Source: a virus
Length of the DNA stretch: 24,746 bases
Strand: one strand, 5' to 3'
Virus record (IMG/VR): IMGVR_UViG_3300035698_004574
Coordinates: 1 to 24,746 of that record
In this document: positions 434 through 24,746 of the stretch, one piece after another
How the letters are laid out: each line of letters starts with the position of its first letter
Position numbering within the stretch: the first letter of the stretch is position 1
Position numbers and translations under genes: made by a program
The notes under the pieces: generated by a model
Told to the model about the DNA's origin: nothing
Databases searched by the model: none
Seen by the model: only the letters and a program-made list of their open reading frames with translations

Positions 434-1089
434 ATCTAGTTTCAAAAACTCAATTCTCGTCAATGTTCGGAAAGGCTTCGAACTATCTGTCAAACTATGT
501 CAAGCGGTCTCAAGTGGTCCTCAATGACAATCAAGTTGACCTGGACGATCCTATCAACGCGGACTTTTTGCAGTCACGCCGGGAGATTCTCGGATCGTTT
601 CCTATGTCTGAAGCCCGCGCCCCTGCTAAGAAGTACGAAAAGAAAATCAAAAAAGACAAACCAGCGCCAAAAGCGAAAGCGCCGTCCATCAAAAAGCCTG
701 TGACGGCTCCGTCAAAAGCTGAGAGCAAGGTCGCAAAGGAGGACGCGAGTCTCGCGAAACGAATCAGGGAGGCTGACCTCAAGAAAAAACTGCTGGACGC
801 GGAGATCAGTCAGAACAAACTGAACAAACTACTCGGAAAATCTTTGCCGACTGACTTAGTCAAAGAAGTTGTCACACAAATGAATAAAGCAATGACCGAC
901 TCAATGAAAGAGGCTGTTGATAGTTACACTGATGACATTGCACACCGGACCAGAATGTCCGCAAAGGACGTGAGCCAGTCAAAAAAAGAATTGATTGCAA
1001 TCGTCAACACTCATTCGAGGCGAGCAGTCGAAAAGGCAAAGCGCCGAATTGAAAAGGCAATAATCGAAATGACTGAGAATGAAAAGTGA
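430..1089 (+). CDS. Probable terminase small subunit (Nu1-like DNA-binding N-terminus)
   Basis: A 219-residue protein immediately upstream of, and overlapping by 11 nt, the large terminase gene. Residues about 5-50 (SKTQFSSMFG, then SNYVKRSQVVL, then DLDDPINADFLQSRR) look like the winged-helix DNA-binding domain of Nu1-type small terminases, which recognise the phage packaging site. Residues about 65-125 are a Lys/Ala/Pro-rich linker. The rest is predicted helical and highly charged, as expected for oligomerisation and contact with the large subunit. The function is inferred from the N-terminal pattern plus position. It is longer than many small subunits because of the linker. The start is fixed by the ATGA overlap with the preceding gene. 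Confidence 0.62.
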   Translation: MNLVSKTQFSSMFGKASNYLSNYVKRSQVVLNDNQVDLDDPINADFLQSRREILGSFPMSEARAPAKKYEKKIKKDKPAPKAKAPSIKKPVTAPSKAESKVAKEDASLAKRIREADLKKKLLDAEISQNKLNKLLGKSLPTDLVKEVVTQMNKAMTDSMKEAVDSYTDDIAHRTRMSAKDVSQSKKELIAIVNTHSRRAVEKAKRRIEKAIIEMTENEK

Positions 1090-3085
1090 GGGAATTCAAA
1101 AAATTTATTCTGATATTATTTTCGGCATCTATGAAGGGGCCGTCCACGAGCTGGACGATATCTCTCCGAGTGCCTGGGCTGAAAAGCACGTTGTCTTAGG
1201 TAAGGAGGAGCCAAAGCCAGGGCCTTTCTCCTATGATAACTCGCCTTACGTCAAGGGGATTGTCGATTGCTTAGACGTAAACCACCCCGCAAAGGAAATC
1301 GCGATCATGAAAGGGGCTCAAATTGGAATGAGTCGAGGTCTTATAATGAATGGAATCGGATATATCATTGACATTGCTCCAGGAAATACGGCGCTAATGG
1401 TCGGACACGAGGACCTAACAAAGGACGCGTCTACAAAAGTTGACTCAATGATCGACAATGCTGACATTCGTCACCTCATTTTCAATCAGTCTGGTAAGCT
1501 AAGGCACACAAAGTCAGGAGATACTGACAAACTGAAAGAGTTTGCAGGAGGTTATTTGCTGATCGGTACATCAAATCACAGTACACTGAGGCAGAGGTCT
1601 TTACGTTATGGATTTATAGATGACTTTGACGGAATGAAATCTGAATCTAAGGAGGCAGGGGATACTCGAAAGCTGATCAATAAAAGATTTGCAGCGTTCA
1701 AAGACAAAAGAAAAATAATGTATATCTCAACGCCAGAGCTCGCGGTCAACTCAAACATTGAGCCCGTCTATCTCAGAGGGGATCAGAGAAAATATCATAT
1801 TGAATGCCCGTGCTGTCAGGAGAGAATTGTCCTTGAGTGGGAGATTGAAAGCCAGTGTGACGGGGTCGATATGGCCGGGATCACCTGGAGTTTAGACGAT
1901 AGCGGGGACTTAATCCCTGAGTCTGTAGGCTATACGTGCTATAAATGCGGGGGATTCTTTGACGATAGGGACAAATATAAACTTTTGAGGGAGGGCGAAT
2001 GGATTCCGACTGCCAAACCTGCCGACCCTGATGTCGTTTCTTTCCATATCTCAGCGCTTTACGCTCCGCCTTTCATGTATGACTGGACCTATTACGTCCG
2101 AGAATACATTGAAGCGTGTCCGTTAGGGCAGGAAAGAAAGGAATCTGAGTACAAAACATTCGTTAACACGGTGCTAGGGCTGACATATACGCCGCTCTCT
2201 CAGGATATCAAGGCGACTGAGCTGCAGAAAAACTGCAGACCTTACTCAGTTAACACGATACCGGACAAGTTGTCTGTCGCTGACGGAAATGGAAAAATTG
2301 TTTTGCTGACTTTCGCCTGTGACCTTAACGGGAAAGTTGATGACGCTCGCCTTGATTATGAAATTGTAGCCTGGTCTGAAAACGGACAGACGTATTCTGT
2401 CAGTCACGGATCATTCGGAACTTTCATTCCAAAGGACCCCGGAAAAATCAAGCGTGACAAATGGACCTATCGAAAAGGAAAAGAGCTGAGCGTCTGGCCT
2501 AAAGTGACCGAGATTTTTGAGACACGTATCCCACGAGATGACGGCTCGACAATGGCAATCTTTGCGGGCGGAATTGATACAGGATATCTCTCAGAATATG
2601 CGTATCCTTTCGTCAGAGATTCGAATTTTAATATTTGGAGCCTTAGAGGTGACACGAAAGAGGGCGGCTTTATTAGCAAGCAACATGATACAAGGTCTTA
2701 CAAAGTATCGGCTGAGAAAAAAGATTTGTTTATTGTCAGGGGTAACGCGATCAAGGACGACCTCGCAAACCATATGCTTTTAAACTGGGACCAAGAGCAC
2801 GGAGAGATTCAGCCTCACGGCTTCATGAACTTTCCTAGTCCGTCTGAAGGGCAGTATCAATTCAAAAATTATTTCTCTCACTTCGAAGCGGAGAAAAAAG
2901 AATTTGATCCTAAGAATGAAAAATTTCTCTGGAAGAAAAAATCGAACAACCATCAAAACCACCTTTTCGATTGCCGGGTTTACAACGTGGCTGTCCGTGA
3001 TATCCTGCTCGATAAGATTTTCAGAGAGCGAGGGATTCAAAACGGGACTTGGGCGGATTGGGTTTCGTTAGTGCTTAAGAAATAG
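1079..3085 (+). CDS. Terminase large subunit, GpA family
   Basis: A 668-residue packaging motor: an ATPase that pumps DNA into the prohead and a nuclease that cuts concatemers. The Walker A-like loop is KGAQIGMSRG (residues 78-87). The segment HSTLRQRSLRYG then GFIDDFDG (about 178-185), the downstream GDT...KR and the ISTP coupling motif follow the order seen in GpA/lambda-type large terminases. Two Cys pairs (CPCC 243-246, CYKC 287-290) form a zinc-binding insert typical of this family. GGIDTGY (Asp about 500) fits the first nuclease acidic site and HLFDCRVYN near the end a late one. The Walker B acidic pair reads DD instead of the usual DE. The 3' end overlaps the convergent minus-strand gene by 18 nt. 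Confidence 0.93.
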   Translation: MKSEGIQKIYSDIIFGIYEGAVHELDDISPSAWAEKHVVLGKEEPKPGPFSYDNSPYVKGIVDCLDVNHPAKEIAIMKGAQIGMSRGLIMNGIGYIIDIAPGNTALMVGHEDLTKDASTKVDSMIDNADIRHLIFNQSGKLRHTKSGDTDKLKEFAGGYLLIGTSNHSTLRQRSLRYGFIDDFDGMKSESKEAGDTRKLINKRFAAFKDKRKIMYISTPELAVNSNIEPVYLRGDQRKYHIECPCCQERIVLEWEIESQCDGVDMAGITWSLDDSGDLIPESVGYTCYKCGGFFDDRDKYKLLREGEWIPTAKPADPDVVSFHISALYAPPFMYDWTYYVREYIEACPLGQERKESEYKTFVNTVLGLTYTPLSQDIKATELQKNCRPYSVNTIPDKLSVADGNGKIVLLTFACDLNGKVDDARLDYEIVAWSENGQTYSVSHGSFGTFIPKDPGKIKRDKWTYRKGKELSVWPKVTEIFETRIPRDDGSTMAIFAGGIDTGYLSEYAYPFVRDSNFNIWSLRGDTKEGGFISKQHDTRSYKVSAEKKDLFIVRGNAIKDDLANHMLLNWDQEHGEIQPHGFMNFPSPSEGQYQFKNYFSHFEAEKKEFDPKNEKFLWKKKSNNHQNHLFDCRVYNVAVRDILLDKIFRERGIQNGTWADWVSLVLKK

Positions 3086-3538
3086 TAATATCATAAATGT
3101 CATTATTGTTAGCCAAGAAAATATAATTATGAGTCTTGTATTGCTAGCTTTATCCTGACTGAAATCTCTAATAATTGAGTTGTCTCTAGTTTTTCTACTC
3201 CCGTTTTTGCTTGGTCTATTCGGGAATAAAGGCATATTTATTTCGGGCTTAGAGTATTCTGATAGATAATACTCCCCCCTATTTTGCTCCTGAGATATCC
3301 AACTCACCTCCTTCATGAATGTGATAAACTCTTTTGTTTTGTTATCTCTTATCGGTATTTTGGTGTTTTTGACAAACAAGTATTTGAATGACACAACAAG
3401 GTCTTTGTATCTTAGTCCGTTGTCGCCAGTATCGCTGAACGCGTCTGTCAGTATTCTATAGACTACTTGCGGACTGATAGTGTCTGCTCGACTGCTGTTA
3501 AAATTATATTTAGTCAATGTGTATGCTGATTTTTCCAT
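3068..3538 (-). CDS. Unknown protein with C-terminal membrane anchor
   Basis: About 156 residues from the ATG at 3538; a TTG at 3553 in the same frame is less likely because it lies inside the promoter-like element. The N-terminal two thirds are soluble, with predicted helices and a strand pair (ISQEQ...GEYYLSEYSK) that resembles the wing of a winged-helix fold, but I do not recognise a family. The last 22 residues are strongly hydrophobic (LIIIFSWLTIMTFMILLFL), giving a single tail anchor. The gene has its own Bacteroidota-type promoter and converges on the terminase, so it looks like an accessory (moron) gene expressed independently of the late operon. A superinfection-exclusion, lysis-control or membrane-tethered regulatory role would fit, but none is shown. 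Confidence 0.6.
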   Translation of the reverse strand: MEKSAYTLTKYNFNSSRADTISPQVVYRILTDAFSDTGDNGLRYKDLVVSFKYLFVKNTKIPIRDNKTKEFITFMKEVSWISQEQNRGEYYLSEYSKPEINMPLFPNRPSKNGSRKTRDNSIIRDFSQDKASNTRLIIIFSWLTIMTFMILLFLKH

Positions 3539-3542
3539 GCCC

Positions 3543-3574
3543 CAAACATACAAACAAGTTTACATATATACAAA
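3543..3574 (-). promoter_or_regulatory. Bacteroidota-type promoter (TTTG-N20-TATGTTTG)
   Basis: On the minus strand TTTG (3574-3571) is followed after 20 nt by TATGTTTG (3550-3543), matching the Bacteroidota sigma consensus TTTG...TAnnTTTG. The -7 box ends 4 nt before the ATG at 3538, so the expected transcription start falls at or next to the start codon. An 18-bp element shared with the site at 8656-8673 overlaps the upstream half. Confidence 0.65.
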
Positions 3575-3575
3575 C
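3558..3575. repeat. 18-bp shared element, copy 1
   Basis: GTTTACATATATACAAAC on the plus strand matches the element at 8656-8673 at 17 of 18 positions. It is an imperfect dyad with GTTT/AAAC ends around an AT core. Both copies stand just upstream of minus-strand genes, which suggests a common promoter or operator sequence. Confidence 0.5.
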
Positions 3576-3578
3576 TTT

Positions 3579-4337
3579 TTATAAAACTTTTTTCAAATTA
3601 AATTCGTCAGGCACCTCAATTAAATTCTGTCGATAGTCCTCAACGTAGGAGCCCGCCTTGATTTTTGGATCGAGATAGTCACGCAGTAAATTTGATTTTG
3701 CAATATTATTTTTTGCGCTAGAATTATTTATTTTTCTGTTTATGTCTCTGCGGACCCATGAAAAGTGGTGCATTTTTGTTTTCATTTGATAGACCTCTGC
3801 AGCATTTACCCTCCGAGTTGGGTCAACATATAAAGGATAAGATTGTTTATGTCCTCCGATAGTGTCAGGCTTTAGCTCGTGAATGAACGGGACGAAATAA
3901 TCATCAACGTTCTCGAATCTAAGTGTCGGCTTTTTAAAATATGTGAACATCTCACAGGCGGAGCCCTCGGCTCCTGAGTCAATATATTCCTGCTTAGCCG
4001 CTCCAAAGTCAGAGTAAAACTCGTCACAATCTAAATGCAGAAAGTGAGTGCATTCTAAAGCCTTAGCGAACTCTAACCCCAGGTTGCGCTTTGCTGTCTC
4101 GTTGTGCATTCCGTTATGCTTTGACGGATCGTACTTTTCAAAATGGACCTCCGCCTTGCACTCCTTAAAAAATGCGCGGTTTGCAAGTATCTCCGTGATT
4201 GGGTTATACTCCTCGCCGTAATTGGAGACCGTCTGAAACATTATGATAATTATATCAACGTGCTCATGTACCTGCCTCATTGAAGGGATCAGGAGCTCCT
4301 CGGAATCGAATACTGAATAAATCGCTGCTAACTTCAT
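3579..4337 (-). CDS. Putative glycosyltransferase (GT2/GT92-like), last gene of the glycan operon
   Basis: A 252-residue soluble protein. The start (KLAAIYSVFDSEELLIPSMRQV) is the beta-strand/helix opening of GT-A glycosyltransferases acting on nucleotide sugars. Residues 98-107 read HFLHLDCDEF, with a DxD metal-binding motif (D103, D105). Downstream, HHFSWVRRDINRKINNSS resembles the His-containing acceptor-side segment of GT92-like and related families. There is no transmembrane segment, so it probably works in the cytoplasm. The start ATG overlaps the stop of the methyltransferase upstream in an ATGA junction. Sugar donor and acceptor cannot be read from sequence. Confidence 0.72.
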   Translation of the reverse strand: MKLAAIYSVFDSEELLIPSMRQVHEHVDIIIIMFQTVSNYGEEYNPITEILANRAFFKECKAEVHFEKYDPSKHNGMHNETAKRNLGLEFAKALECTHFLHLDCDEFYSDFGAAKQEYIDSGAEGSACEMFTYFKKPTLRFENVDDYFVPFIHELKPDTIGGHKQSYPLYVDPTRRVNAAEVYQMKTKMHHFSWVRRDINRKINNSSAKNNIAKSNLLRDYLDPKIKAGSYVEDYRQNLIEVPDEFNLKKVL

Positions 4338-4861
4338 TGTATAGCAGTTATTTCAAAGCCGCCTGACTTCATTCCGATAAGCCCTGATATATCGACATAA
4401 TTCGAGACCATTGCCGCTCCTGCTCCTCCTCCTGGAGTATTCAGCTCAACGGCCCATTTGAATTTTGAAAAGTGCTGTCTGACTTGATACCCAGCGTCAG
4501 CTTGACCTTTCTCGGTGTCGTGTATTACGATAATTTTCGCGGTCTTTCTGTTTTGATATAAATCAATTTGACGTCTCTCTCCTGGAGCGTGGTCAATGAA
4601 TAGCACGTCAGGCGTAAAAATTGGTAAGTCTTTCCATTCCGCAATAAGTTCGGAGCCCGTCTGAGCAGCCCAGTCAGGGTAATTTTCAAACGAAAGGAAC
4701 TCTCTGCCTGCCTGGCTGCAGTACTCTCTCAAAAAAGGAGTTGACCCATGACCGGACCCGAACTCAATCACCTGTCCTTTAGTCATTTTCAGCGCCTCGA
4801 ATAAAAAGATTCTGTGATTTGATTCGTTGTTTAAATGTTCAAGAAATTCTGCTTTTTTCAT
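4334..4861 (-). CDS. Class I SAM-dependent methyltransferase-like protein
   Basis: A 175-residue protein with a SAM-binding glycine loop VIEFGSGHGS (residues 31-40), an acidic strand-end in LSFENY (about 56-61), DVLFIDHAPGERRQ (85-98) and IIVIHDTE (110-117). These follow the order of the Rossmann-fold methyltransferase core as found in small sugar or cell-envelope methyltransferases (Methyltransf_24-like). The glycine-rich PGGGAGAAM near 143-151 is unusual. Both ends share ATGA overlaps with neighbours, placing it in the glycan operon, where O-methylation of a sugar is the natural guess. A role in methylating another small molecule cannot be excluded. Confidence 0.7.
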   Translation of the reverse strand: MKKAEFLEHLNNESNHRIFLFEALKMTKGQVIEFGSGHGSTPFLREYCSQAGREFLSFENYPDWAAQTGSELIAEWKDLPIFTPDVLFIDHAPGERRQIDLYQNRKTAKIIVIHDTEKGQADAGYQVRQHFSKFKWAVELNTPGGGAGAAMVSNYVDISGLIGMKSGGFEITAIQ

Positions 4862-5334
4862 AATAAATTTTTAACTAAGTCCATACGTCCGAAGATAGAA
4901 ATTTCATTCTGTCCTCTGGTCGGTAGGTTGTCCGTGATAAATAATAATTGTTTTTTTGATGTGAGATATTTTATTTCTTCTCTGATTTCAGGATTTCTCC
5001 CGGCTTTTATTTCGGCCCTAAGATAGTTTAAAAAAGTTTTTGGATTATTTCCGAAATCAATATTTCCTATTTTAATAATGACGTGGTCAGGAAATAAAGC
5101 TGTCACGTATCGCTCCATAATTTTTTTATGGTTAACGTATTTTGTTTGTTGGCTCTGATCGAGCGTGCTGAAATATACGAGCATTTGATATCGCGGCTGC
5201 TCATAAAGGAGCTGAATCTCTCGCTGAAACTCTTTCGGGTCCTCGCATGAGCTGTCAGAAACTCCTGAAGCAAAGAAAGTGATATCTCGTCTGTCGTTTA
5301 AAGCTTGCGCTATGTCTCCGTTTCCTATTATCAT
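4858..5334 (-). CDS. Short NAD-dependent epimerase/dehydratase-like (SDR) protein
   Basis: A 158-residue protein beginning with the nucleotide-binding glycine motif MIIGNGDIAQAL. The middle carries FFASGVSDSS (20-29) and YFST (54-57) followed by KYVNHK (65-70). That supplies the Ser/Thr and YxxxK (Y66, K70) catalytic signature of extended short-chain dehydrogenases such as nucleotide-sugar epimerases and dehydratases. It is much shorter than classical sugar epimerases (usually around 300 residues), so the C-terminal substrate domain is reduced. Its TAA stop-side neighbour is coupled by ATGA (4858-4861), and its own ATG directly follows the upstream stop (TAAATG). It probably makes or modifies a nucleotide sugar for the neighbouring transferases. 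Confidence 0.68.
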   Translation of the reverse strand: MIIGNGDIAQALNDRRDITFFASGVSDSSCEDPKEFQREIQLLYEQPRYQMLVYFSTLDQSQQTKYVNHKKIMERYVTALFPDHVIIKIGNIDFGNNPKTFLNYLRAEIKAGRNPEIREEIKYLTSKKQLLFITDNLPTRGQNEISIFGRMDLVKNLL

Positions 5335-5550
5335 TTAGTTTTCAGTTTCACAATTGGGACAAATTATTGGGCATGTGCCTATTGCTCCCGTGGACATGCC
5401 TACGCTTCTGCCTTTCTTTATGGTGAGCATTCCATCTATAGCCAGTTTCTCACCGCAACTAATACATACTTTGGGTATGGTGAGCGGATTTAACCACTTC
5501 AGTGCTCTCTGGAGTTCAGCTTCTCTTTTTTTTTGTGATGTGATATTCAT
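5335..5550 (-). CDS. Small zinc-ribbon protein
   Basis: A 71-residue protein with an N-terminal charged helix (QKKREAELQRALKWL) and two Cys clusters: CISCG (about 29-33) and CPIICPNC (about 60-67). Together they form a four-Cys zinc ribbon with one extra Cys. I do not recognise a specific family. Its place in the middle of the glycan operon, joined by an ATGA overlap at 5547-5550 and by TAAATG at its end, suggests co-expression. It might act as an adaptor, a regulator or a metal-binding subunit; the sequence does not decide. Confidence 0.6.
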   Translation of the reverse strand: MNITSQKKREAELQRALKWLNPLTIPKVCISCGEKLAIDGMLTIKKGRSVGMSTGAIGTCPIICPNCETEN

Positions 5551-5789
5551 ATTGATCCTTTTTTAAATGGCCCGATTTTCGGTAATTCCTTGTATGCCTT
5601 AATCGTGGAGTTCGTGTCGTAAAACGCGTCAGTAGGTTCAATTATTATTCGCCTATGAATATAATCGAACTCCTCCTTTACGTGAGTATTTTCGCATCCC
5701 GTTATTAAAAACAGACCGGAATTCTCGTCATATTCAGCAACTTGCATTTTTTTGAGATACATAACCCAGTAAAATCCTGACTTCATCAT
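5547..5789 (-). CDS. Small conserved-looking protein of unknown function
   Basis: An 80-residue protein. I chose the ATG at 5789 because it makes a 4-nt ATGA overlap with the upstream FkbM gene; the frame is open further upstream, which would need a 31-nt overlap. The pattern SGFYWVMYLKKMQVAEYDE, then GLFLITGCE and EEFDYIHRRI, resembles a widespread family of short phage and bacterial proteins with a FYWV...W.IA.Y...W...G.E...F..I layout and no assigned activity. It is predicted to be a small mostly beta fold without membrane segments. Its function in the operon is unknown. Confidence 0.6.
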   Translation of the reverse strand: MMKSGFYWVMYLKKMQVAEYDENSGLFLITGCENTHVKEEFDYIHRRIIIEPTDAFYDTNSTIKAYKELPKIGPFKKGSI

Positions 5790-6340
5790 TCTGCTAATAT
5801 AAATAAACTTGACCAATAATTCTGTCCTGCTCCGTGCTCATTCGTCAGCTCATGACTCGCGGCGTAATATCCGAGCTCTGTCAGTTTGTCGACAATTTTG
5901 TCAACGTCAGTCTGATAGTAATCATTGATATGTAGGTGAAACTCAATCGAAATCTGACGCGCGGGCGCGGTATGCAGTGACCCTATGATCGCTCGCTCGT
6001 CTCCCTCAACGTCGATCTTAACGACGTCCCAGAATTTTATTTGATTATCTGTTGAGAATTTCTCAAGCGTCATGCACTCAACGTCAGAGCCTCCTAAAAT
6101 TGTGTGTGTTGCTTGAGGGTCTCTCGTGTTTTGTACGCCGATTAATCCTGTATAGCTGGAAATCCCGACTCTGTGATAATCTTTTCTATCAAGTTGGTCA
6201 ATGTCTACGGCGTAAACTTCAAAGCCTCTCCGCCTGAAGTGGTCCACAAAAAGAAAATTTCGACATCCGATATCAAGAATTTTCGCATTTTCTGGGAGCA
6301 GATCGGTATCGACTTTGTGCTCGTGTATTGTTTTTATCAT
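5786..6340 (-). CDS. FkbM-family methyltransferase
   Basis: A 184-residue SAM-dependent methyltransferase. Motif I is ILDIGC (21-26), the acidic ribose-binding residue sits in YAVDID (43-48), and the FkbM hallmark VKIDVEGDE lies at 107-115, followed by ISIEFH (about 130-135). FkbM proteins usually O-methylate sugars or polyketide hydroxyls, so methylating a glycan made by the surrounding transferases is the likely job. Its stop overlaps the start of the next small gene, and 6 nt separate it from the transferase upstream. At 184 residues it is a compact version of the family; the core motifs are intact. Confidence 0.85.
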   Translation of the reverse strand: MIKTIHEHKVDTDLLPENAKILDIGCRNFLFVDHFRRRGFEVYAVDIDQLDRKDYHRVGISSYTGLIGVQNTRDPQATHTILGGSDVECMTLEKFSTDNQIKFWDVVKIDVEGDERAIIGSLHTAPARQISIEFHLHINDYYQTDVDKIVDKLTELGYYAASHELTNEHGAGQNYWSSLFILAE

Positions 6341-6346
6341 AATTTC

Positions 6347-6985
6347 TTATTTAAAATGTCGCTTATTAAATACTGACTCGTCGCTCAGACAGTAGTCAAT
6401 CTCATGAGGACGGATAGGCTCAATAAAGTTGTGAAACATTGCGTAAGCAATGACCGACTCGTCTGCTCTATGGCCCTGCAGTCTCCCTGTCGCCTCCTGC
6501 TCTTGGCTCCCGAAATAGCCTGACTGCTCAAATACTTTCCATTGCTGGTATATCATGCAAGCTGGAGCAGTGTCAAAATCAAAATAATAGAGTGATCCGC
6601 CGACTAAATGTACTTCGTAAACATCTAGCGAATCCCTAGTCTCCTCAATTATTGTCAGAAAACTATCTGAAATAAAAGTACTGAGTCTGTTTTCGTCTCT
6701 GACGGCTGTCATATCGTATTTGAAAAGCGCGTCAACTGGTCCGTTGATAATCATAGCAGGGTCCAGCCAGAGCACCTTTTGAAATTTTTTCTTTGCTTGT
6801 TGTATAGCATACACCTTAAAACCATATAAAGACTCAAGGAAAGGCTTTGAGTATTCCGGCAGCTGTTCGGTCCAAAACATAATATTCGCGTCAGGATAGA
6901 CCTTTAAAATCGAAGCCTTGAGTCGGACCTGTTGCTTGACGTACTGCTCGCCGAAAGCTACTGAAACAAAAACTAAGTCTTTCAT
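6347..6985 (-). CDS. Putative GT-A glycosyltransferase with a degenerate DxD
   Basis: A 212-residue soluble protein. LVFVSVAFGEQYVKQ at the start, a conserved-looking VLWLDPAMIINGPVDALF (71-88), VGGSLYYFDFD (about 128-138) and the late GHRADESVIAYAM give the layout of GT8-like/nucleotide-diphospho-sugar transferases, in which the LWLD strand normally carries the metal-binding DxD. Here it reads D75-P-A77, so the second acidic residue is missing. The enzyme may be metal-independent, use another ligand or be inactive. Its ATG overlaps the stop of the transferase upstream (ATGA, 6982-6985). Confidence 0.65.
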   Translation of the reverse strand: MKDLVFVSVAFGEQYVKQQVRLKASILKVYPDANIMFWTEQLPEYSKPFLESLYGFKVYAIQQAKKKFQKVLWLDPAMIINGPVDALFKYDMTAVRDENRLSTFISDSFLTIIEETRDSLDVYEVHLVGGSLYYFDFDTAPACMIYQQWKVFEQSGYFGSQEQEATGRLQGHRADESVIAYAMFHNFIEPIRPHEIDYCLSDESVFNKRHFK

Positions 6986-7671
6986 GGTAATAAATTTAAA
7001 ATTCTCTCCGCCTCAATTTGATTGAACGGTCTCAACATGTGGGCGTCAATCTTCTCGCCTGGAGCGTTCAAAGTTCTTTCCCAGTCAGCGCGGTCAATTC
7101 GTCCTTTCGCTAATCCGTTCGTAAATCCTCGATCAATTAAATCAATTGACTCAGGGTTTGCGTTTACGTTTATTCTCTCAGTTATAATCTGTTGGTCAAC
7201 TGTCCACCACGTTTCCCAGTGCTCAGATTTTGCGTTCGGATATTTATCGAGCAACTCTGGGAGAGTTTCTTCAGGGATTATTTTTTCCCAGTATTCCGAT
7301 TTCATTGCAATGTAGCAAATCGGATATTGAGAGCGGCCTGTCAAATCGAATCCGTAGACCGTCAACTTGTTTTCGTTCGGGTGCCAGTAGTCAGAGCAGG
7401 GCATCATATCAACGTCTGAGGTCATAATGAATCCGTCAGTAAATCTGTGGCCTAGCAAACGAATGCACTGGACGACTGTCTCAGGCCTGTAATCTCCGCC
7501 CGCAAAAGTGACGTCAATGGTTTTGTTTTTAGGGTCCTTTGTTGATATCGTGATCCCGTGAGTAAATGTCAAAGTTTCCCAGCCTAATTTATTCCAGGCC
7601 TTTTGAACGTATGGCAAATAATTCAGATAATCTGGGTTATTGTTTGTCGATAGTATTACTGTCTTTTTCAT
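6982..7671 (-). CDS. Putative glycosyltransferase with DVD motif
   Basis: A 229-residue protein opening with VILSTNNNPDYLNYLPYV, the usual first strand and loop of nucleotide-sugar transferases. GFIMTSDVDMMP (80-91) supplies a DxD motif (D86, D88), and the later WETWWTVDQQIITERI has the aromatic-rich W..DQ segment often seen near the active site of GT-A enzymes that pick sugar acceptors. There is no membrane segment. It lies directly downstream of the degraded homing-endonuclease remnant and is coupled to the next transferase by an ATGA overlap. Donor and acceptor are unknown. Confidence 0.7.
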   Translation of the reverse strand: MKKTVILSTNNNPDYLNYLPYVQKAWNKLGWETLTFTHGITISTKDPKNKTIDVTFAGGDYRPETVVQCIRLLGHRFTDGFIMTSDVDMMPCSDYWHPNENKLTVYGFDLTGRSQYPICYIAMKSEYWEKIIPEETLPELLDKYPNAKSEHWETWWTVDQQIITERINVNANPESIDLIDRGFTNGLAKGRIDRADWERTLNAPGEKIDAHMLRPFNQIEAERILNLLP

Positions 7672-7674
7672 AAG

Positions 7675-7796
7675 TTATTTATTTAGATATTTCCATTTAA
7701 AACCGTAGGCATGAGGTCTCTCTCCTCTTGCCGCCTCTTTTTTATGTTTACTGACTGACCTATATAAATTCGGCCTGAAGGTGAAACAATCCTCAT
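7675..7796 (-). pseudogene. Remnant of a GIY-YIG/NUMOD homing endonuclease
   Basis: Two frames of this 122-nt gap recall opposite ends of one type of protein. From the ATG at 7796, a 37-codon frame starts MRIV, then SPSGRIYIGQSVNIKKR, the YIG half and following helix of a GIY-YIG nuclease domain. In another frame, ending at TAA 7677-7675, stands ARGERPHAYGFKWKYLNK, like the C-terminal end of NUMOD-type DNA-binding repeats in phage homing endonucleases. The GIY strand, the catalytic middle and the linker are absent. The simplest reading is a large internal deletion with frameshift. The second frame is the same frame as the upstream glycosyltransferase, entered past its TGA. It is not a working enzyme. 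Confidence 0.55.
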
Positions 7797-7797
7797 A

Positions 7798-8655
7798 TCA
7801 AAAAACAAATGGATCAGTCCAATAAAAAATCCTAGGATATTTTTTCTCTACCTCCTGGATGTCCTTGAATAACTCTTTTTTTGTCGACAGGAATCTCTCC
7901 ATTGTCGGGGAATAATATCCAGCCGCCCCAATGTGCCCGCACAGTAAATCAGTCTCCTTCAAGCTCTCATCAAGACCGATATCTATATCTGGTATATGAT
8001 TGTGGAAGTCACTCAGAAACGTATCTCCGTGACCTAAAACATAGTGCTGAGTGATTGAGTCCGTTCCTTTGGTCCCGACTGCAGGATATATCACTCTATT
8101 TAAAAAGTCCTGGTCACTGCCTTTCCTGTCGAAATTAATGTACTCAGATTTCGTGAGCATCTCGTCCCACGTTTGGCCCACCTTTTCAGTAATGTAATCA
8201 GGTTTAAATCCTATCATTCCGCCCATTAAAGGGATTGAATGACTGACTGAGTCGCAAATTGCGTGCGCTGCTTTGTCACTTTCGATCCATTGAGCAACCG
8301 CTTGAGCGTCTCTGTATGTTGTCGGACTGTCAAGGTCTCTGCAAATTACGTGTGAATATTTCCAGGCTCCGGCCTCCATTTCAAAGATAGGCTTCATTCG
8401 CCAAAGCATAGCCAGACAGAGCGGGGCCTCGGTTTCTACTTTCGTAGTGATTCCGATATTTTCAAAAATGAATTTATAAGCCTCGTATGTCTGGGGGTCC
8501 GTATGCAGAACGATTTCCCAGTCTGGAAAAATTAACCTGTTTAATCTGACGTTGATCAGTAGGCCTCTCAGGTAAGAGTGAAAATCAAAGCAGTTGGCTG
8601 CTCTCTCTTTACCGAATCCAAAAAGGCTGTATGATATTGCTTTTTTTCTTTTCAT
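7798..8655 (-). CDS. Putative glycosyltransferase with RDLDS motif
   Basis: The largest transferase of the island at 285 residues. It opens with AISYSLFGFG, then IFPDWEIVLHTD (42-53), then MLWRMKPIFE (83-92), and HVICRDLDSP (102-111) with a DxD motif (D107, D109). The following YRDAQAVAQWI, MGGMIGFK and GSDQDFLN are typical of a family of GT-A transferases found in capsule and phage loci. It has no membrane helix. Unlike its neighbours it has a private promoter-like site directly before its ATG, so it may start a second transcript within the operon. Its TGA is followed by 40 sense codons in frame, which I attribute to the endonuclease remnant. Confidence 0.78.
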   Translation of the reverse strand: MKRKKAISYSLFGFGKERAANCFDFHSYLRGLLINVRLNRLIFPDWEIVLHTDPQTYEAYKFIFENIGITTKVETEAPLCLAMLWRMKPIFEMEAGAWKYSHVICRDLDSPTTYRDAQAVAQWIESDKAAHAICDSVSHSIPLMGGMIGFKPDYITEKVGQTWDEMLTKSEYINFDRKGSDQDFLNRVIYPAVGTKGTDSITQHYVLGHGDTFLSDFHNHIPDIDIGLDESLKETDLLCGHIGAAGYYSPTMERFLSTKKELFKDIQEVEKKYPRIFYWTDPFVF

Positions 8656-8673
8656 GTTTACAAATATACAAAC
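8656..8673. repeat. 18-bp shared element, copy 2
   Basis: GTTTACAAATATACAAAC abuts the start codon of the glycosyltransferase at 8655 and differs from the copy at 3558-3575 at one position. In this copy the minus strand contains a perfect TATATTTG box. Confidence 0.5.
8661..8668 (-). promoter_or_regulatory. TATATTTG promoter-like -7 box
   Basis: The minus strand reads TATATTTG, a perfect match to the Bacteroidota -7 consensus TAnnTTTG, ending 5 nt before the ATG at 8655. A clear TTTG at the -33 distance is not seen. If used, the transcript would begin at about the start codon. Confidence 0.45.
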
Positions 8674-8674
8674 T

Positions 8675-9241
8675 TTATTTGTTTGAGCGGTATAAATAAT
8701 AATAAATGATTTCGTCCGAGTAAACCTCTGATTTTAAGAGACCTGAGCGCTGTATTTGGTCGCTCCAGTCCTTATCTTCTCCGTGATTTATTTCTTTAAA
8801 CTTAAATTTTTTCGCAATTTCTGACTTGATACAGTTCAAATGATTCGGGTTTCTCTCGTACTTAATCTCATTCTCAGTCGTTTTCCATTCCGAGTATTTA
8901 ATCGAGTGCTCGAAAATCTCAGGATTCTCTCCGTCAGTCGTCATGATCCCTCTCAAAGAAAGGCAATCGGGACCCGACTTGATTCCCTCCTTTATTGTTT
9001 TGATAAAGTTCGCGCCTGGCTTGTCGTCTGAATCAAAGAATAGTAAGTATTGGCCTTGAGCTATTTCGAGCAAGTCGTTTCTTTTGGTCCCGATTGACCC
9101 CTCCGCCATATTAGTGATTATCTGATAATCCTCATTTATTGACCATCCGGCTAGGACCCCCTGAACTATTAAATCATTTATCAAGGTGTCGGTCATGTCC
9201 ATTCTGTCCGGCGTGCTAGGAATTAAAATAGATAGTTTCAT
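8675..9241 (-). CDS. Putative family 2-like glycosyltransferase
   Basis: About 188 residues from the ATG at 9241, chosen because it forms an ATGA overlap with the small gene upstream and puts MKLSILIPSTPDR, the classic GT2 first strand, at the N-terminus; the frame extends 9 codons further upstream without such a signal. IGTKRNDLLEIAQGQYLLFFDSDDK is the nucleotide-sugar binding core, with DSDD (70-73) as the metal site. HGEDKDWSDQI near the C-terminus matches the ED acceptor-side motif of GT-A enzymes. It is soluble and shorter than average GT2 enzymes, but the catalytic core appears complete. Confidence 0.8.
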   Translation of the reverse strand: MKLSILIPSTPDRMDMTDTLINDLIVQGVLAGWSINEDYQIITNMAEGSIGTKRNDLLEIAQGQYLLFFDSDDKPGANFIKTIKEGIKSGPDCLSLRGIMTTDGENPEIFEHSIKYSEWKTTENEIKYERNPNHLNCIKSEIAKKFKFKEINHGEDKDWSDQIQRSGLLKSEVYSDEIIYYYLYRSNK

Positions 9242-9375
9242 TTCTTGTAAATTTTTAACGTGAAGCATAAGAAAAGATAATCAACTTTTTTCGCGTGAGG
9301 TGAAATATTTATTTTTTGCGGAATCAAAACCCATTCTCTCAGGCTGACGGATAGAACTATTTGCTTAATTTTCAT
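9238..9375 (-). CDS. Small translationally coupled protein of unknown function
   Basis: A 45-codon reading frame that exactly fills the space between two glycosyltransferase genes. Its ATG (9375-9373) overlaps the stop of the upstream gene (TGA 9374-9372) and its own TGA (9240-9238) overlaps the next ATG, so both junctions are ATGA. The protein begins MKIKQIVLSVSLREWVLIP and has a short hydrophobic stretch (YLFLCFTLKIY) and an overall basic character. No family is recognised. The double coupling is the main argument that it is translated. It could also merely be a passage that keeps ribosomes moving between the flanking genes. Confidence 0.45.
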   Translation of the reverse strand: MKIKQIVLSVSLREWVLIPQKINISPHAKKVDYLFLCFTLKIYKK

Positions 9376-10040
9376 ACTGGAAATCCCTCCGCACGTCTTT
9401 TGTGATAGACTGCTTTACCTTGAGCCCAGTTGTTCGAGCTGTTTTGATACGTCTCGTCAATTTGGCTTTTCAGATTTGGGTCCGGGTTGGTGTAATGTAG
9501 GTGAGGGAATTTGAGCGGCTCGGCAAAAATTAACCATTGATTTTTATCGCATACGTGATAAAGGTCCTGATCTACGAACATTGATAAATATAACGGATTC
9601 CAGAAATAGCCTAGCCTCTTATGTAAGGCCTTGCTCATTATTGGAATGGTTAAGACGTCAACTTTAAAACGCTGGAGGCAGTCGTCAACTTTCAAAAGCC
9701 AGAGCTCAGGATTATTCAGGACCGCGACTGAATCAATAATCAACTGATCCCATCCGATAGGACAATCGAAATCGTCAGACAAATAAATCAATATATCTCC
9801 GCGAGAAACTTTTGCCGCGACATTGGTCGCTTGCACGACTGAATCATTCGCGCTCGCGCAAATCGTGGAGCCCTCTTTGAATAGAGCTTTATACAGCTCA
9901 AGTTGAGAGTCGTCAAGGTCAACTGAAAGTATATGCTCAATTTCATTGAAGCCCGAAGCCTTTGAAAGCCATTTATTCAGCGTTTCGCTTGCTTGTTTTG
10001 CGCGCCCCCGCGAGGGGTGTATCAGTGAGATTTTAGTCAT
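9372..10040 (-). CDS. Putative family 2-like glycosyltransferase
   Basis: A 222-residue protein. ISLIHPSRGRAKQASETLNKW is a typical GT2 opening, with the acidic loop SVDLDDSQ at 39-46. GDILIYLSDDFDCPIGW (81-97) is the central strand with an SDDFD metal-binding motif (D89, D90, D92). The C-terminal FPHLHYTNPDP supplies a His-rich acceptor-side segment. It is soluble. It overlaps the upstream transferase by 8 nt and the small gene downstream by an ATGA. Donor and acceptor are unknown. Confidence 0.8.
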   Translation of the reverse strand: MTKISLIHPSRGRAKQASETLNKWLSKASGFNEIEHILSVDLDDSQLELYKALFKEGSTICASANDSVVQATNVAAKVSRGDILIYLSDDFDCPIGWDQLIIDSVAVLNNPELWLLKVDDCLQRFKVDVLTIPIMSKALHKRLGYFWNPLYLSMFVDQDLYHVCDKNQWLIFAEPLKFPHLHYTNPDPNLKSQIDETYQNSSNNWAQGKAVYHKRRAEGFPV

Positions 10041-10680
10041 AGTATTCAGTATAAAATTTATAACTTATAGGGTCCATATATTTTTTTAGAAATTCGAAAT
10101 TGTGGTCTAGGTTTTTATACCTATGCAGTAAATCAGTATGAAATTTGCCGCCTGTCAATCCTTCGCCGTGCTTTATCCCTATGCAGTTCGGACTCGCTGG
10201 CATATAGGTTAAATGCTTCAGGCCCGACAGGGTCCAAAGATGACTATCAGTATAAGGTTGTTTATCGTTGCACCATTCGAAATTTAGATCAGGCTTAATG
10301 AGTGTATTCATTGCGCTCGACCTTGAGAAGTGGTCAAATTGAAAGTAAGCCTTTAGCTTTAGATTATAATAGAGCGTGTATCTCTGACCGAAAAGCTCAG
10401 GCTTTCCGTGAGAGGTCCAGGCGTTGACAACCTCCTCAATATAAGTCGGAGAGTAAAAATCGTCATTCTCTATAAAGAAAATGCAATCGAGTCCTCGATT
10501 TCTGAGAGTATTATATCCGGTCCTATACCTCAGAGTGATATCTGACTCAGGCCATTTTGGCGCAAAATTTACGAGCTCAATCACTTCGATTTCAACGGTT
10601 TGGGCCGTTAACATTCTCAAACAATTCTCTAAAAATTTAGGTCTGTCCGACCTGTCGGGAATGATTACTCCTATTCTCAT
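10033..10680 (-). CDS. Putative glycosyltransferase, first gene of the glycan operon
   Basis: A 215-residue protein beginning MRIGVIIPDRSDRPKFLENCLRM, a GT2-type first strand and helix. GLDCIFFIENDDFYSPTYIEEV (63-84) carries the NDD metal-binding site (D73, D74). The later HLWTLSGLKHLTYMP and IGIKHGEGLTGG fit the acceptor half of GT-A folds. There is no membrane segment. It is the promoter-proximal gene of the minus-strand operon, with a TATATTTG box 4 nt before its ATG and a 23-bp palindrome just beyond that box, so its expression, and probably that of the genes below it, is likely regulated there. Confidence 0.75.
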   Translation of the reverse strand: MRIGVIIPDRSDRPKFLENCLRMLTAQTVEIEVIELVNFAPKWPESDITLRYRTGYNTLRNRGLDCIFFIENDDFYSPTYIEEVVNAWTSHGKPELFGQRYTLYYNLKLKAYFQFDHFSRSSAMNTLIKPDLNFEWCNDKQPYTDSHLWTLSGLKHLTYMPASPNCIGIKHGEGLTGGKFHTDLLHRYKNLDHNFEFLKKYMDPISYKFYTEYYD

Positions 10681-10696: not shown

Positions 10697-10719
10697 TTTA
10701 CTGTAATAATTACAGTAAA
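10697..10719. promoter_or_regulatory. Perfect 23-bp palindrome, candidate operator
   Basis: The arm TTTACTGTAAT (10697-10707) and its exact reverse complement (10709-10719) flank a single A. Each half contains a smaller dyad TTACnGTAA (10698-10706 and 10710-10718), with centres 12 bp apart, so two repressor dimers could bind side by side. It lies between the divergent glycan operon and tail operon, overlapping the -33 area of the minus-strand promoter. A stem-loop terminator is unlikely because both adjacent genes start here. Confidence 0.55.
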
Positions 10720-10786: not shown

Positions 10787-12301
10787 ATGTCAAGTAATGC
10801 AGTAGGTAGTTCAGTTCAGTCGGCGGTTGTTGGCTATAAGATAACAAAAGGAGACTTCAGGAATGAAACTCCAAACCTCCCACAAAGAGTCGCTTTATTA
10901 GGAGAGGCAAACTTTGCAAATCAAGGGACGCTAAGCTTGGCAGCTAAAGAAATTACAACTTCACAACAGGCGGGCGAGCTTTACGGCTTTGGGTCCCCTA
11001 TTCATATGGCAATGAGAATATTGCGCCCCGCTTCAGGTGGTGGTTTAGGTGGTATCCCTGTTTACGTCTATCCTCAAGCAGAGGCTGGATCGGCAACACA
11101 TAGACAACTTGATATAACTATCACTGGCTATGCTACAGCAAATGCTACTCATACGGTGGTGATTGCGGGACGTGAAGGATTAGAGGGCGGACGTTATGAC
11201 TTTGCGGTTGTAAAAGGAGATAGCTCAAACGAGATCAGTCAAAAAATTGAGGACGCTGTCAACAATGTTCTTGACTGTCCTATGACAGCAACGGGATCGG
11301 GATATGATTCGTCTTTAACTACGAAATGGAAAGGCTTGACTGCTCAAGAAATCACTGTAACAGTATCAACGAACGACTTAGCTGTCGGAATAACTTACGC
11401 GGTCGCTGAAATCACAGCGGGCTCAGGAACTCCTGCAGTCACTACGGCTCTGAATTTATTCGGGAACGCCTGGAATACAATCGTTGTAAATACTTACGGG
11501 ACAGTTTCGTCAATCATGACAGAGCTTGAGGACTTCAACGGAATAGCTGATCCAACGACTCCAACAGGTCGTTATACTAGCACAACAATGAAACCGTTTA
11601 TTGCTTTGACTGGATCGGTTGCGAACAACCCGTCAGACACTACGAACGCGAGACTTACTGAAATGACTATCGCAATCTGTCCGGCACCATTAAGCCCAGC
11701 CCACCCATTAGAGGCGGCAGCGAATCAAGCGGTCAATTTTGCTACAACTTCACAGGATAGCCCGAATTCGGACACTATCGAACAAAAATATTCAGATATG
11801 CCCGCTCCGGCTGACGGAGATATCGGCTCAATGGCTGTCTATGCAAATAGAGACTCATTTGTCAAAAAGGGTTGTTCTACTGTTGACATAGTTGACGGAG
11901 AGTATATCGTAAAAGATTTTGTCACCACTTACCACCCAACAGGAGAAACTCCTGCTCAATTTGCTTACTGTAGAAACTTAATGCTGGACCTTAACGTCTT
12001 TTATGGTTACTATTTGAAAGAGCAAATTTCGGTAGTTGGGAAAACATTAATTGACGGGACTGTAATAGTTAACGCGGCGAATACGATTTCGACTGATGTC
12101 TGGAAAGGAATTCTTTTCAAATATGCTGACGAATTAGGAGCGAGAGCTTTAATTGCTGACGTTCAATTCATGAAAGACTCTTTAGTCGTTAATATCGGAA
12201 CTTCTAATCCTGACAGAATGGAGACTTTCTTCAGATATAAGAGAACCGGAACCGTGAGAATCGCGTCATCTACGGCAGAGGCTGGATTCAATTTCGGATA
12301 A
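10787..12301 (+). CDS. Tail sheath protein (Mu gpL-like)
   Basis: A 504-residue structural protein forming the contractile outer sheath. The N-terminal segment PQRVALLGEANFANQG with AGELYGFGSPIHMAMRIL follows the first sheath domain pattern, in which the fold inserts into the neighbouring subunit. The middle (about 110-240) is a Thr/Ala/Gly-rich beta domain exposed on the surface. The C-terminal part from about DVWKGILFKYADELGARALIAD to the end, with NPDRMETFFRYKRTGTVRIAS, is the conserved sheath core and ends in the extended C-terminal arm. It is followed by the tube gene in the order usual for myoviruses. It starts a plus-strand operon after an A-rich leader (TAATTAAAAAAAC). Confidence 0.85.
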   Translation: MSSNAVGSSVQSAVVGYKITKGDFRNETPNLPQRVALLGEANFANQGTLSLAAKEITTSQQAGELYGFGSPIHMAMRILRPASGGGLGGIPVYVYPQAEAGSATHRQLDITITGYATANATHTVVIAGREGLEGGRYDFAVVKGDSSNEISQKIEDAVNNVLDCPMTATGSGYDSSLTTKWKGLTAQEITVTVSTNDLAVGITYAVAEITAGSGTPAVTTALNLFGNAWNTIVVNTYGTVSSIMTELEDFNGIADPTTPTGRYTSTTMKPFIALTGSVANNPSDTTNARLTEMTIAICPAPLSPAHPLEAAANQAVNFATTSQDSPNSDTIEQKYSDMPAPADGDIGSMAVYANRDSFVKKGCSTVDIVDGEYIVKDFVTTYHPTGETPAQFAYCRNLMLDLNVFYGYYLKEQISVVGKTLIDGTVIVNAANTISTDVWKGILFKYADELGARALIADVQFMKDSLVVNIGTSNPDRMETFFRYKRTGTVRIASSTAEAGFNFG

Positions 12302-24055: not shown

Positions 24056-24746
24056 TCATCCCGTAATAATATTTTTTTCTTCCCCTTCTTTTTTCTTACT
24101 CATACCCTTTAAAATATGCGTAATAACATCTACAGTCCAACCATTACCAAGCATTTTATACCGTTGGCTATTGCTTACGTGGTTTGTGTAGTTATCTGGT
24201 ACTGTCTGCAGTCTTTCGCATTCTAAAACAGTTAGTTTTCTTGTGTGGCCCTTATCCACACTATCCCATTCGTGCCTATCATAACTTCCACGTCCACCAG
24301 AACGTACACATTTACTTTTTTTTCTTACTTCTAATCCTTGCCTTCCGCTTCTAATTGTTGGGCTTTTGTTTTCATATATCCTTTCAGGTCTATTTTTGTA
24401 TAATGAATCCACTATTACAATGTTATCCTTTTGAACGGTTGTAAGGCAATTACTTTTTTCATCACTTCTTATTTCCAAATATTGTTTAGTTTTTCCAGCA
24501 GTCAACATTTTGCCATCTTGTCTAATTCCATCAACTAAATAACGTCCACGTCTTGCACCTACTCTTTCATTTTCATCTTCTAAAACATCTTTTAGTAAAA
24601 TATTTTTGTCTTCCGGTAAAGTCAAATTAGGTATGTTAGTCCAATAATATCTTACTCTATTTTGAGCAGAAACCAAATTACTATTTATCATAATTGGTTC
24701 AACACCTAAATATTTACTAATAACATCTTGGCTTTCTTTTTTCATT
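24056..24746 (-). CDS. DNA cytosine-5 methyltransferase, C-terminal part (cut by window edge)
   Basis: At least 230 residues of a C5-cytosine methyltransferase. NSNLVSAQNRVRYYWTNIP holds conserved motif VIII (QNRxRxYW). A variable target-recognition region follows. RKLTVLECERLQTVPDNYT is motif IX, and RYKMLGNGWTVDVITHIL is motif X. The N-terminal motifs I (SAM-binding) and IV (PCQ catalytic Cys) are not present and must lie beyond 24746; the ATG at 24745 is therefore internal. Such orphan enzymes in phages usually protect DNA from restriction, but no partner nuclease is in view. The coding sequence is visibly more AT-rich than the phage structural genes, suggesting a separate origin. Confidence 0.88.
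   Translation of the reverse strand, partial: MKKESQDVISKYLGVEPIMINSNLVSAQNRVRYYWTNIPNLTLPEDKNILLKDVLEDENERVGARRGRYLVDGIRQDGKMLTAGKTKQYLEIRSDEKSNCLTTVQKDNIVIVDSLYKNRPERIYENKSPTIRSGRQGLEVRKKSKCVRSGGRGSYDRHEWDSVDKGHTRKLTVLECERLQTVPDNYTNHVSNSQRYKMLGNGWTVDVITHILKGMSKKKEGEEKNIITG

Follow-up and report, generated by a model that had tools for sequence, protein, structure and literature searches.

What is a set of thirteen genes, most of them apparently for sugar transfer and sugar decoration, doing on the opposite strand between the terminase and tail genes of a phage? The question is raised by a viral contig record of 24,746 bases (IMG/VR record IMGVR_UViG_3300035698_004574), referred to here as the window, in which 13 open reading frames (ORFs), lettered A to M, lie head-to-tail on the minus strand at positions 3579-10680 between the genes for the terminase large subunit (TerL) and the tail sheath. 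Our analysis suggests, with a probability of roughly three in four, that this island is an exchangeable virion-glycosylation cassette and that a virion protein is its favoured acceptor. A first-pass annotation of the window had described an opposite-strand island of thirteen genes at this place, and the ORF calls together with the profile matches of TerL and sheath bear this out. Judged from its sequence, the source is an uncultured relative of Flavobacterium phage FCL-2 with a contractile tail and the backbone order TerS-TerL-[island]-sheath-tube-tape measure-baseplate-portal.

Links between the island and the virion

Glycosyltransferase (GT) genes are tied to structural genes by the TerL-sheath slot and, in relatives, by fusions to a head domain. 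In many relatives, roughly the first 50 residues of the GT encoded after A show homology to a small head-module protein, whose gene lies between those of the major capsid protein (MCP; Phage_cap_E) and the head-closure protein Hc1. In FCL-2 the protein at the corresponding position is a 54-aa ORF directly after the MCP. The domain corresponds to phrog_6286 (unknown function). A hidden Markov model (HMM) trained only on head-module proteins was searched against 3,692 ORFs and their reversed sequences; it matched 15 cassette GTs at their N-termini, one in each of 15 contigs (E values of 4e-13 to 1e-3), and otherwise head-position genes and essentially nothing else, and 0 of the 3692 reversed proteins. 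The catalytic domains behind the head domain differ, including GT2-like domains and GT1-like plus TOD1/MUCI70 domains, and thus either the fusion arose more than once or catalytic domains were exchanged behind it.

Analysis of gene D by tblastn revealed matches in 59 phage records, all of them actinophages. D is homologous to Che8 gp108 (tblastn 3e-14; HMM 2.7e-34), the first of three adjacent GTs. The homologue in LittleE, gp15, directly follows the capsid gene; a kinase and three further GTs come next, ahead of the head-tail connector. In GodonK the homologue has head and tail genes around it. The major capsid protein of Che8 is reported to be glycosylated (PMC11256854, citing Freeman et al. 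2023), and PMC12619734 places mycobacteriophage glycans at the C-terminal ends of the capsid and tail-tube subunits. A phage protein is favoured as acceptor on two independent grounds: the head domain is fused to 15 cassette GTs, and D is homologous to the Che8 and LittleE GTs.

An exchangeable cassette between terminase and tail sheath

Synteny in related phages had been proposed as a check on the island. Ten of the 13 genes were found to recur in two independent contigs, L003 and L045, in the same order, on the same strand, at the same place and with about 45-60% identity; hence the island is not a product of chance. The divergence of the cassette is similar to that of the backbone (53% for TerL in L003, 61% for the sheath in L045).

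Comparison of 31 loci with both TerL and sheath revealed an antisense cassette in 21, a co-directional cassette in 5 and none of the families A-M in 5; the loci were largely recruited through A, E or TerL, and these frequencies are not population estimates. L174, one of the five loci lacking the A-M families, still holds other GT genes. Among close relatives recruited through TerL that have the TerL-sheath order, three of seven carry cassette genes. Mapped on a sheath tree, the co-directional state requires three or more changes, which well-supported branches enforce. Gene A is usually first in the cassette, and in the commonest arrangement it adjoins the sheath and M adjoins TerL; M, with 42 relatives in the fetched loci, is the cassette gene most often found next to TerL. 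A adjoins TerL in L121, L138, L156 and L147.

The interior of the cassette varies as well, and some cassettes retain A and M while the genes in between are exchanged. Short cassettes have a GT2-like protein, an asparagine-synthase-type amidotransferase and a hexapeptide acyltransferase as their middle, and other cassettes add a sulfotransferase, TylF, WbqC, FkbM or GT90. These alternative interiors are sugar-building or sugar-tailoring families, and nothing resembling a flippase or polymerase was found among them. The TerL-sheath slot is a cassette hotspot. The D-E-F-L core is found again just upstream of the terminase in unrelated phages with a different type of TerL.

The L003 cassette also holds a second, diverged F-like gene between M and L (L003:4307-5020), which is a sign of duplication within cassettes. 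In relatives with the other terminase (L043:2267-2800, L036:5818-6315) the first gene of the cassette encodes a protein resembling a sigma factor by eye, and a small CxxC membrane protein follows the cassette; this pair of proteins in L043 had no Pfam or PHROG match.

Genes and transcription of the island

The features of the island and its borders are listed in Table 1. Genes had been described as head-to-tail and mostly ATGA-overlapping, and 4-nt ATGA overlaps were indeed found at 7 of the 12 junctions (B/C, C/D, F/G, H/I, I/J, K/L and L/M). A and B overlap by 8 nt, J and K abut, and gaps separate D/E (19 nt), E/F (126 nt) and G/H (6 nt). The starts of C and I were corrected to those given in the table (I at 5789), and D probably starts at 9241.

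Table 1. Positions of island genes, border genes and intergenic elements in the window, with the basis of each assignment
Feature	Position	Strand	Basis
Terminase large subunit (left slot border)	1079..3085	+	PF05876 (GpA_ATPase) 4e-50; PF20454 2.6e-38; phrog_15 3.8e-137
Gene M, putative glycosyltransferase (CD[EH] motif), 252 aa	3579..4337	-	D105 invariant
Gene L, putative class I S-adenosylmethionine (SAM) methyltransferase (ExGxGxGST), 175 aa	4334..4861	-	motif; 4-nt overlaps with K and M
Gene K, predicted shortened extended short-chain dehydrogenase/reductase (SDR; epimerase/reductase fold), 158 aa	4858..5334	-	Ser56/Tyr66/Lys70; AF2, Foldseek, VIA
Gene J, CxxC...CxxC small protein, 71 aa	5335..5550	-	sequence; DZR 0.0063, below cutoff
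Gene I, small protein, 80 aa	5547..5789	-	ATGA overlaps with H and J
Gene H, FkbM-family methyltransferase, 184 aa	5786..6340	-	PF05050 5.7e-9; TIGR01444 4.7e-6
Gene G, GT8-like putative glycosyltransferase (WLDPxM), 212 aa	6347..6985	-	PF01501 E 0.024, below cutoff
Gene F, putative glycosyltransferase (DxDMxP), 229 aa	6982..7671	-	motif conservation
E-F gap, 126 nt, with GIY-YIG homing-endonuclease remnant SGRIYIGQSVNIKKR	7672..7797	-	tblastn to phages
Gene E, putative glycosyltransferase (RDxDSP), 285 aa	7798..8655	-	motif conservation
Intergenic Bacteroidota-type promoter-like element (TATATTTG) before E	8656..8674	-	sequence
Gene D, GT2-family glycosyltransferase, 188 aa (probable start)	8675..9241	-	phrog_14775 2.4e-32; PF00535 2.2e-4
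Gene C, small ORF, 45 aa	9238..9375	-	ATGA overlaps both sides
Gene B, glycosyltransferase (SDD motif), 222 aa	9372..10040	-	phrog_14945 glycosyltransferase 2.2e-14
Gene A, predicted GT-A fold glycosyltransferase (ENDD), 215 aa	10033..10680	-	AF2 model, Foldseek, VIA
-7-like box TATATTTG, 4 nt upstream of A start codon	10685..10692	-	motif TAnnTTTG
Tail sheath (right slot border)	10787..12301	+	phrog_165 4.7e-77

Seven products had been annotated as putative GT-A glycosyltransferases. The assignment held for A, by fold, and for B and D, by PHROGs, and weakly for G, by its GT8 match; E, F and M gave no family match. Structures were predicted for A and K. The model of A (AF2 pLDDT 93.7; best Foldseek match 2e-6) aligned with WrtF, SpsA and TarS at a VIA Z of about 15, and residues E71-N72-D73 are invariant in the aligned relatives; A is predicted to be a GT2-like member of the GT-A superfamily with an acidic metal-binding motif. 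In B, S88-D89-D90 are invariant in the aligned relatives. The GT2 match of D (PF00535) sits just under the Pfam cutoff, and D75 of G is invariant in 20 aligned sequences.

Searches with E, F and M revealed zero family matches in Pfam, PHROGs, NCBIfam and PDB profiles. In 28-29 aligned relatives each, their DxD-like positions show no or almost no variation: R106 and D107 of E are invariant and D109 near-invariant (28 sequences), and D86 and D88 of F are invariant (28 sequences). These motifs, taken with the gene context, suggest that the three are glycosyltransferases. They cannot be filed as GT-A by sequence, since profile-profile comparisons (E-F, M-A, B-D, F-G and E-G) found no significant relation. 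PDB profile searches with G and L gave chance-level matches only. Distant matches of E (E values of 3e-12 to 1e-3) are to cyanophage and Acinetobacter phage proteins, one of them annotated as a SPINDLY-family O-GlcNAc transferase.

Among cultured phages no match was found for the island in a nucleotide search or for A, F and L in tblastn. Across 84,980 bacterial genomes F had zero matches and E had only two relatives, both in metagenome bins. In these bins, L232 and L233 (Gemmatimonadales, Alphaproteobacteria), E is accompanied by relatives of B, or of B, G and L; these could be prophages or mis-binned viral contigs.

The annotated FkbM methyltransferase was confirmed in H, which scores 36.8 bits against PF05050 (gathering cutoff 22.7). 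For the second SAM methyltransferase, L, the glycine motif is conserved in 29 aligned sequences and no family match was found in the databases searched. The short epimerase-like SDR was upheld by the fold prediction for K and by its invariant YxxxK. The K model (AF2 pLDDT 88) matched RmlD (1.2e-5) and WbmG (2.5e-5) in Foldseek, and all 158 residues superpose on extended SDRs (such as GalE, RmlD and MoeE5; VIA Z 13). G4 and G6 are likewise invariant in the aligned relatives and S56 is nearly so. K is about half as long as full epimerases, and the model identifies it as a predicted Rossmann-fold extended SDR with the Ser/Tyr/Lys residues and an NAD-binding glycine motif. J is a possible zinc ribbon; neither I nor J had relatives in the fetched loci.

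A crude hydropathy scan predicted no membrane segment in any A-M product, in agreement with the claim that the island has no multi-pass membrane protein. Gene content and the lack of membrane segments support the soluble methylated-glycan pathway proposed in the first-pass annotation. Downstream of M, a minus-strand ORF at 3068-3553 overlaps the end of TerL and has one C-terminal hydrophobic segment; it had no relatives in the fetched loci and lies outside the conserved cassette.

Of 34 A genes, 9 have the motif TAnnTTTG, which we take to be the -7 element of Bacteroidota promoters, ending 2-10 nt before the ATG, compared with 0.8% of shuffled sequences. At 10697-10719, immediately upstream of the promoter box of A, is a palindrome, TTTACTGTAATTATTACAGTAAA, and palindromes also precede A in L124 (TTACATTAATAATGTAA) and L139 (CTGTAGCATTGCTACAG); they are possible operators or AT-rich terminators. 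The near-palindrome GTTTGTATATNTGTAAAC occurs twice, at 3558-3575 before ORF 3068-3553 and at 8656-8673 before E, and may be a repressor site over a promoter.

The GIY-YIG remnant in the E-F gap is closest to Flavobacterium phage FL-1 (68% over 25 aa, E 8e-4) and possibly has a NUMOD-like tail in another frame. A Pfam search of the gap peptide gave no match, while tblastn to phages did recover GIY-YIG relatives. The gap is absent in L045. Other homing-endonuclease relics in cassettes are an AP2/HNH ORF in L045 and NUMOD4 in another.

Acceptor, alternatives and comparison with known systems

According to the explanation that we favour, the soluble enzymes A, B, D, E, F, G and M would draw on host nucleotide sugars, possibly adjusted by the SDR K, and in the cytoplasm would assemble a short oligosaccharide right on a structural protein of the phage, to be methylated by H and probably by L. 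Transcription of the cassette would run in a direction of its own and, in this phage, apparently start at Bacteroidota-type promoters located immediately upstream of A and E. Other GT and decoration sets in the same slot would give different surface glycans to similar particles of related phages. We infer that the acceptor is a virion protein, of the head more likely than of the tail, and the same holds for the number and order of the sugars and for any role in adsorption, stability or evasion of recognition. A bolder version is tentative: the slot may be a virion 'serotype locus' of interchangeable, invertible glycan cassettes, in which the lead GT of many relatives docks on the assembling head through the MCP-neighbour domain, coupling glycosylation to head assembly.

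The near absence of the E and F families from bacterial genomes was counted in favour of virion glycosylation, and so were the lack of predicted membrane segments, the recurrence of the D-E-F-L core beside another type of terminase and the sugar-decoration enzymes of the alternative interiors. Several points weigh against it. The cassette of the window itself has no head-domain fusion, and the head module of this phage lies outside the contig. The fused domain could anchor the enzyme to a partner that is not the acceptor. The putative GT and methyltransferase roles of E, F, M and L come without a family assignment. S/T-rich C-terminal tails, looked for as an acceptor clue in the MCP, decoration protein, tube, sheath and chaperone of cassette-bearing phages, were found in none. 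Moreover, peripheral soluble GTs can act on host lipid-linked or lipooligosaccharide (LOS)-core glycans.

This last point leads to the alternative of host-surface modification, in which the enzymes would, at the inner membrane face, remodel either the LOS core or a lipid-linked precursor and block superinfection or re-adsorption of progeny. The FkbM, WbqC, TylF, hexapeptide acyltransferase and asparagine-synthase amidotransferase families found in cassettes are typically encoded in loci for cell-surface polysaccharides, the GTs of the LOS core include peripheral soluble proteins, and the cassette's own orientation and promoters would let it be expressed separately from the late genes. We nevertheless consider it unlikely, since no initiating transferase, flippase, polymerase or GtrA/B-like protein is present in the cassette or was recognised in 11 longer cassette-bearing contigs. 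The first-pass annotation had named a nearby Wzx/Wzy or initiating transferase as evidence that would speak against its proposal, and none was recognised by a crude hydropathy scan of these contigs (34-53 kb), in which the strongest multi-segment predictions were tape-measure-sized ORFs or unidentified proteins with at most three segments. The site is also a packaging and tail region, not a lysogenic-conversion region; the head-domain fusions and the actinophage homology of D point to virions, and the rarity of E and F in bacteria argues in the same direction.

Hypermodification of nucleic acid, in which the GTs would glycosylate a modified base in phage DNA and block restriction, is less probable still. 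GT clusters that hypermodify phage DNA with glycans are known (Pyle 2024, as cited in PMC12619734). A DNA methyltransferase-like ORF lies at 24056-24745 of the window, and one relative, G001, has a TET/JBP-like protein. This TET/JBP-like dioxygenase is encoded on the L117 contig together with a cassette (G001:C1:42029-42391), where base oxidation may coexist with it. Against this, PF00303 (thymidylate-synthase/dCMP-hydroxymethylase family) was found in 0 and TET/JBP (PF12851) in 1 of 28 related records, many of them, like the window, fragments in which absence is not proof. Relatives of D are encoded near capsid genes or by a phage whose capsid is reported to bear glycans, and the fused domain originates from a head gene. 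Of the two acceptors proposed earlier, phage protein and nucleic acid, the evidence favours the former.

The least probable explanation, a selfish or decaying mobile passenger that homing endonucleases brought into the TerL-sheath gap and that is of no constant benefit to the virion, would suit the endonuclease relics, the orientation flips (at least three) and the relatives without an island, but ten genes that remain intact and in unchanged order at about 50% identity, their catalytic motifs invariant in 13-29 aligned relatives, indicate long purifying selection, and gene overlaps and the promoter are maintained.

Few phage particles have been demonstrated to be glycosylated, and those cited here belong to actinophages. 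If virion glycosylation is the correct explanation, it would extend to a Bacteroidota-infecting lineage, and the logic of polysaccharide loci, with constant ends and an exchangeable middle, would be found on a virus. It would provide a targeting hypothesis, a GT carrying a head-module domain, and would make it testable why phages diversify particle sugars, be it for adsorption to mucus or host glycans, for stability or for escape from antibodies and lectins.

Comparison with known systems revealed partial likenesses. FCL-2 (Ficleduovirus) resembles the phage of the window in TerL (36%), sheath (47%), portal (36%) and the sheath-to-baseplate order; unlike it, FCL-2 has no GT island and has portal and head genes between TerL and sheath. 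Phage seroconversion gtr operons also encode GTs. The island differs in lacking a GtrA-type flippase, bactoprenol GtrB and membrane GtrC (Pfam, PHROGs and the hydropathy scan found no Gtr match and no membrane segment in the cassette) and in its packaging/tail location. O-antigen and capsule loci share the constant flanks and the exchangeable GT, acyl-, amido-, sulfo- and methyltransferase interiors, whereas the island has no Wzx, Wzy, initiating phosphoglycosyltransferase, export system or nucleotide-sugar synthesis set.

In chlorovirus PBCV-1, viral GTs glycosylate the capsid, coupled to sugar methylation (A64R-type GT plus methyltransferase) (PMC4691112; PMC7826918). The combination of viral GTs and methylation is shared, and PBCV-1 glycans have a conserved core and variable outer parts; PBCV-1 is a eukaryotic algal virus, and the likeness is one of organisation taken from these papers, not of sequence. 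The closest analogy is Che8-type mycobacteriophage virion glycosylation, which also depends on a phage-encoded cluster of soluble GTs. By this analogy the cassette would work like actinophage virion glycosylation; D, homologous to Che8 gp108 and to the LittleE GT adjoining the MCP, is the only island gene with shown homology. Unlike Che8, the phage of the window has a Bacteroidota-type host, a contractile tail, 13 genes instead of 3, with methyltransferases and an SDR, and F, A and L families without cultured-phage relatives; it is further set apart by exchangeable cassettes in one slot and, in its relatives, by fusions of GTs to a head domain.

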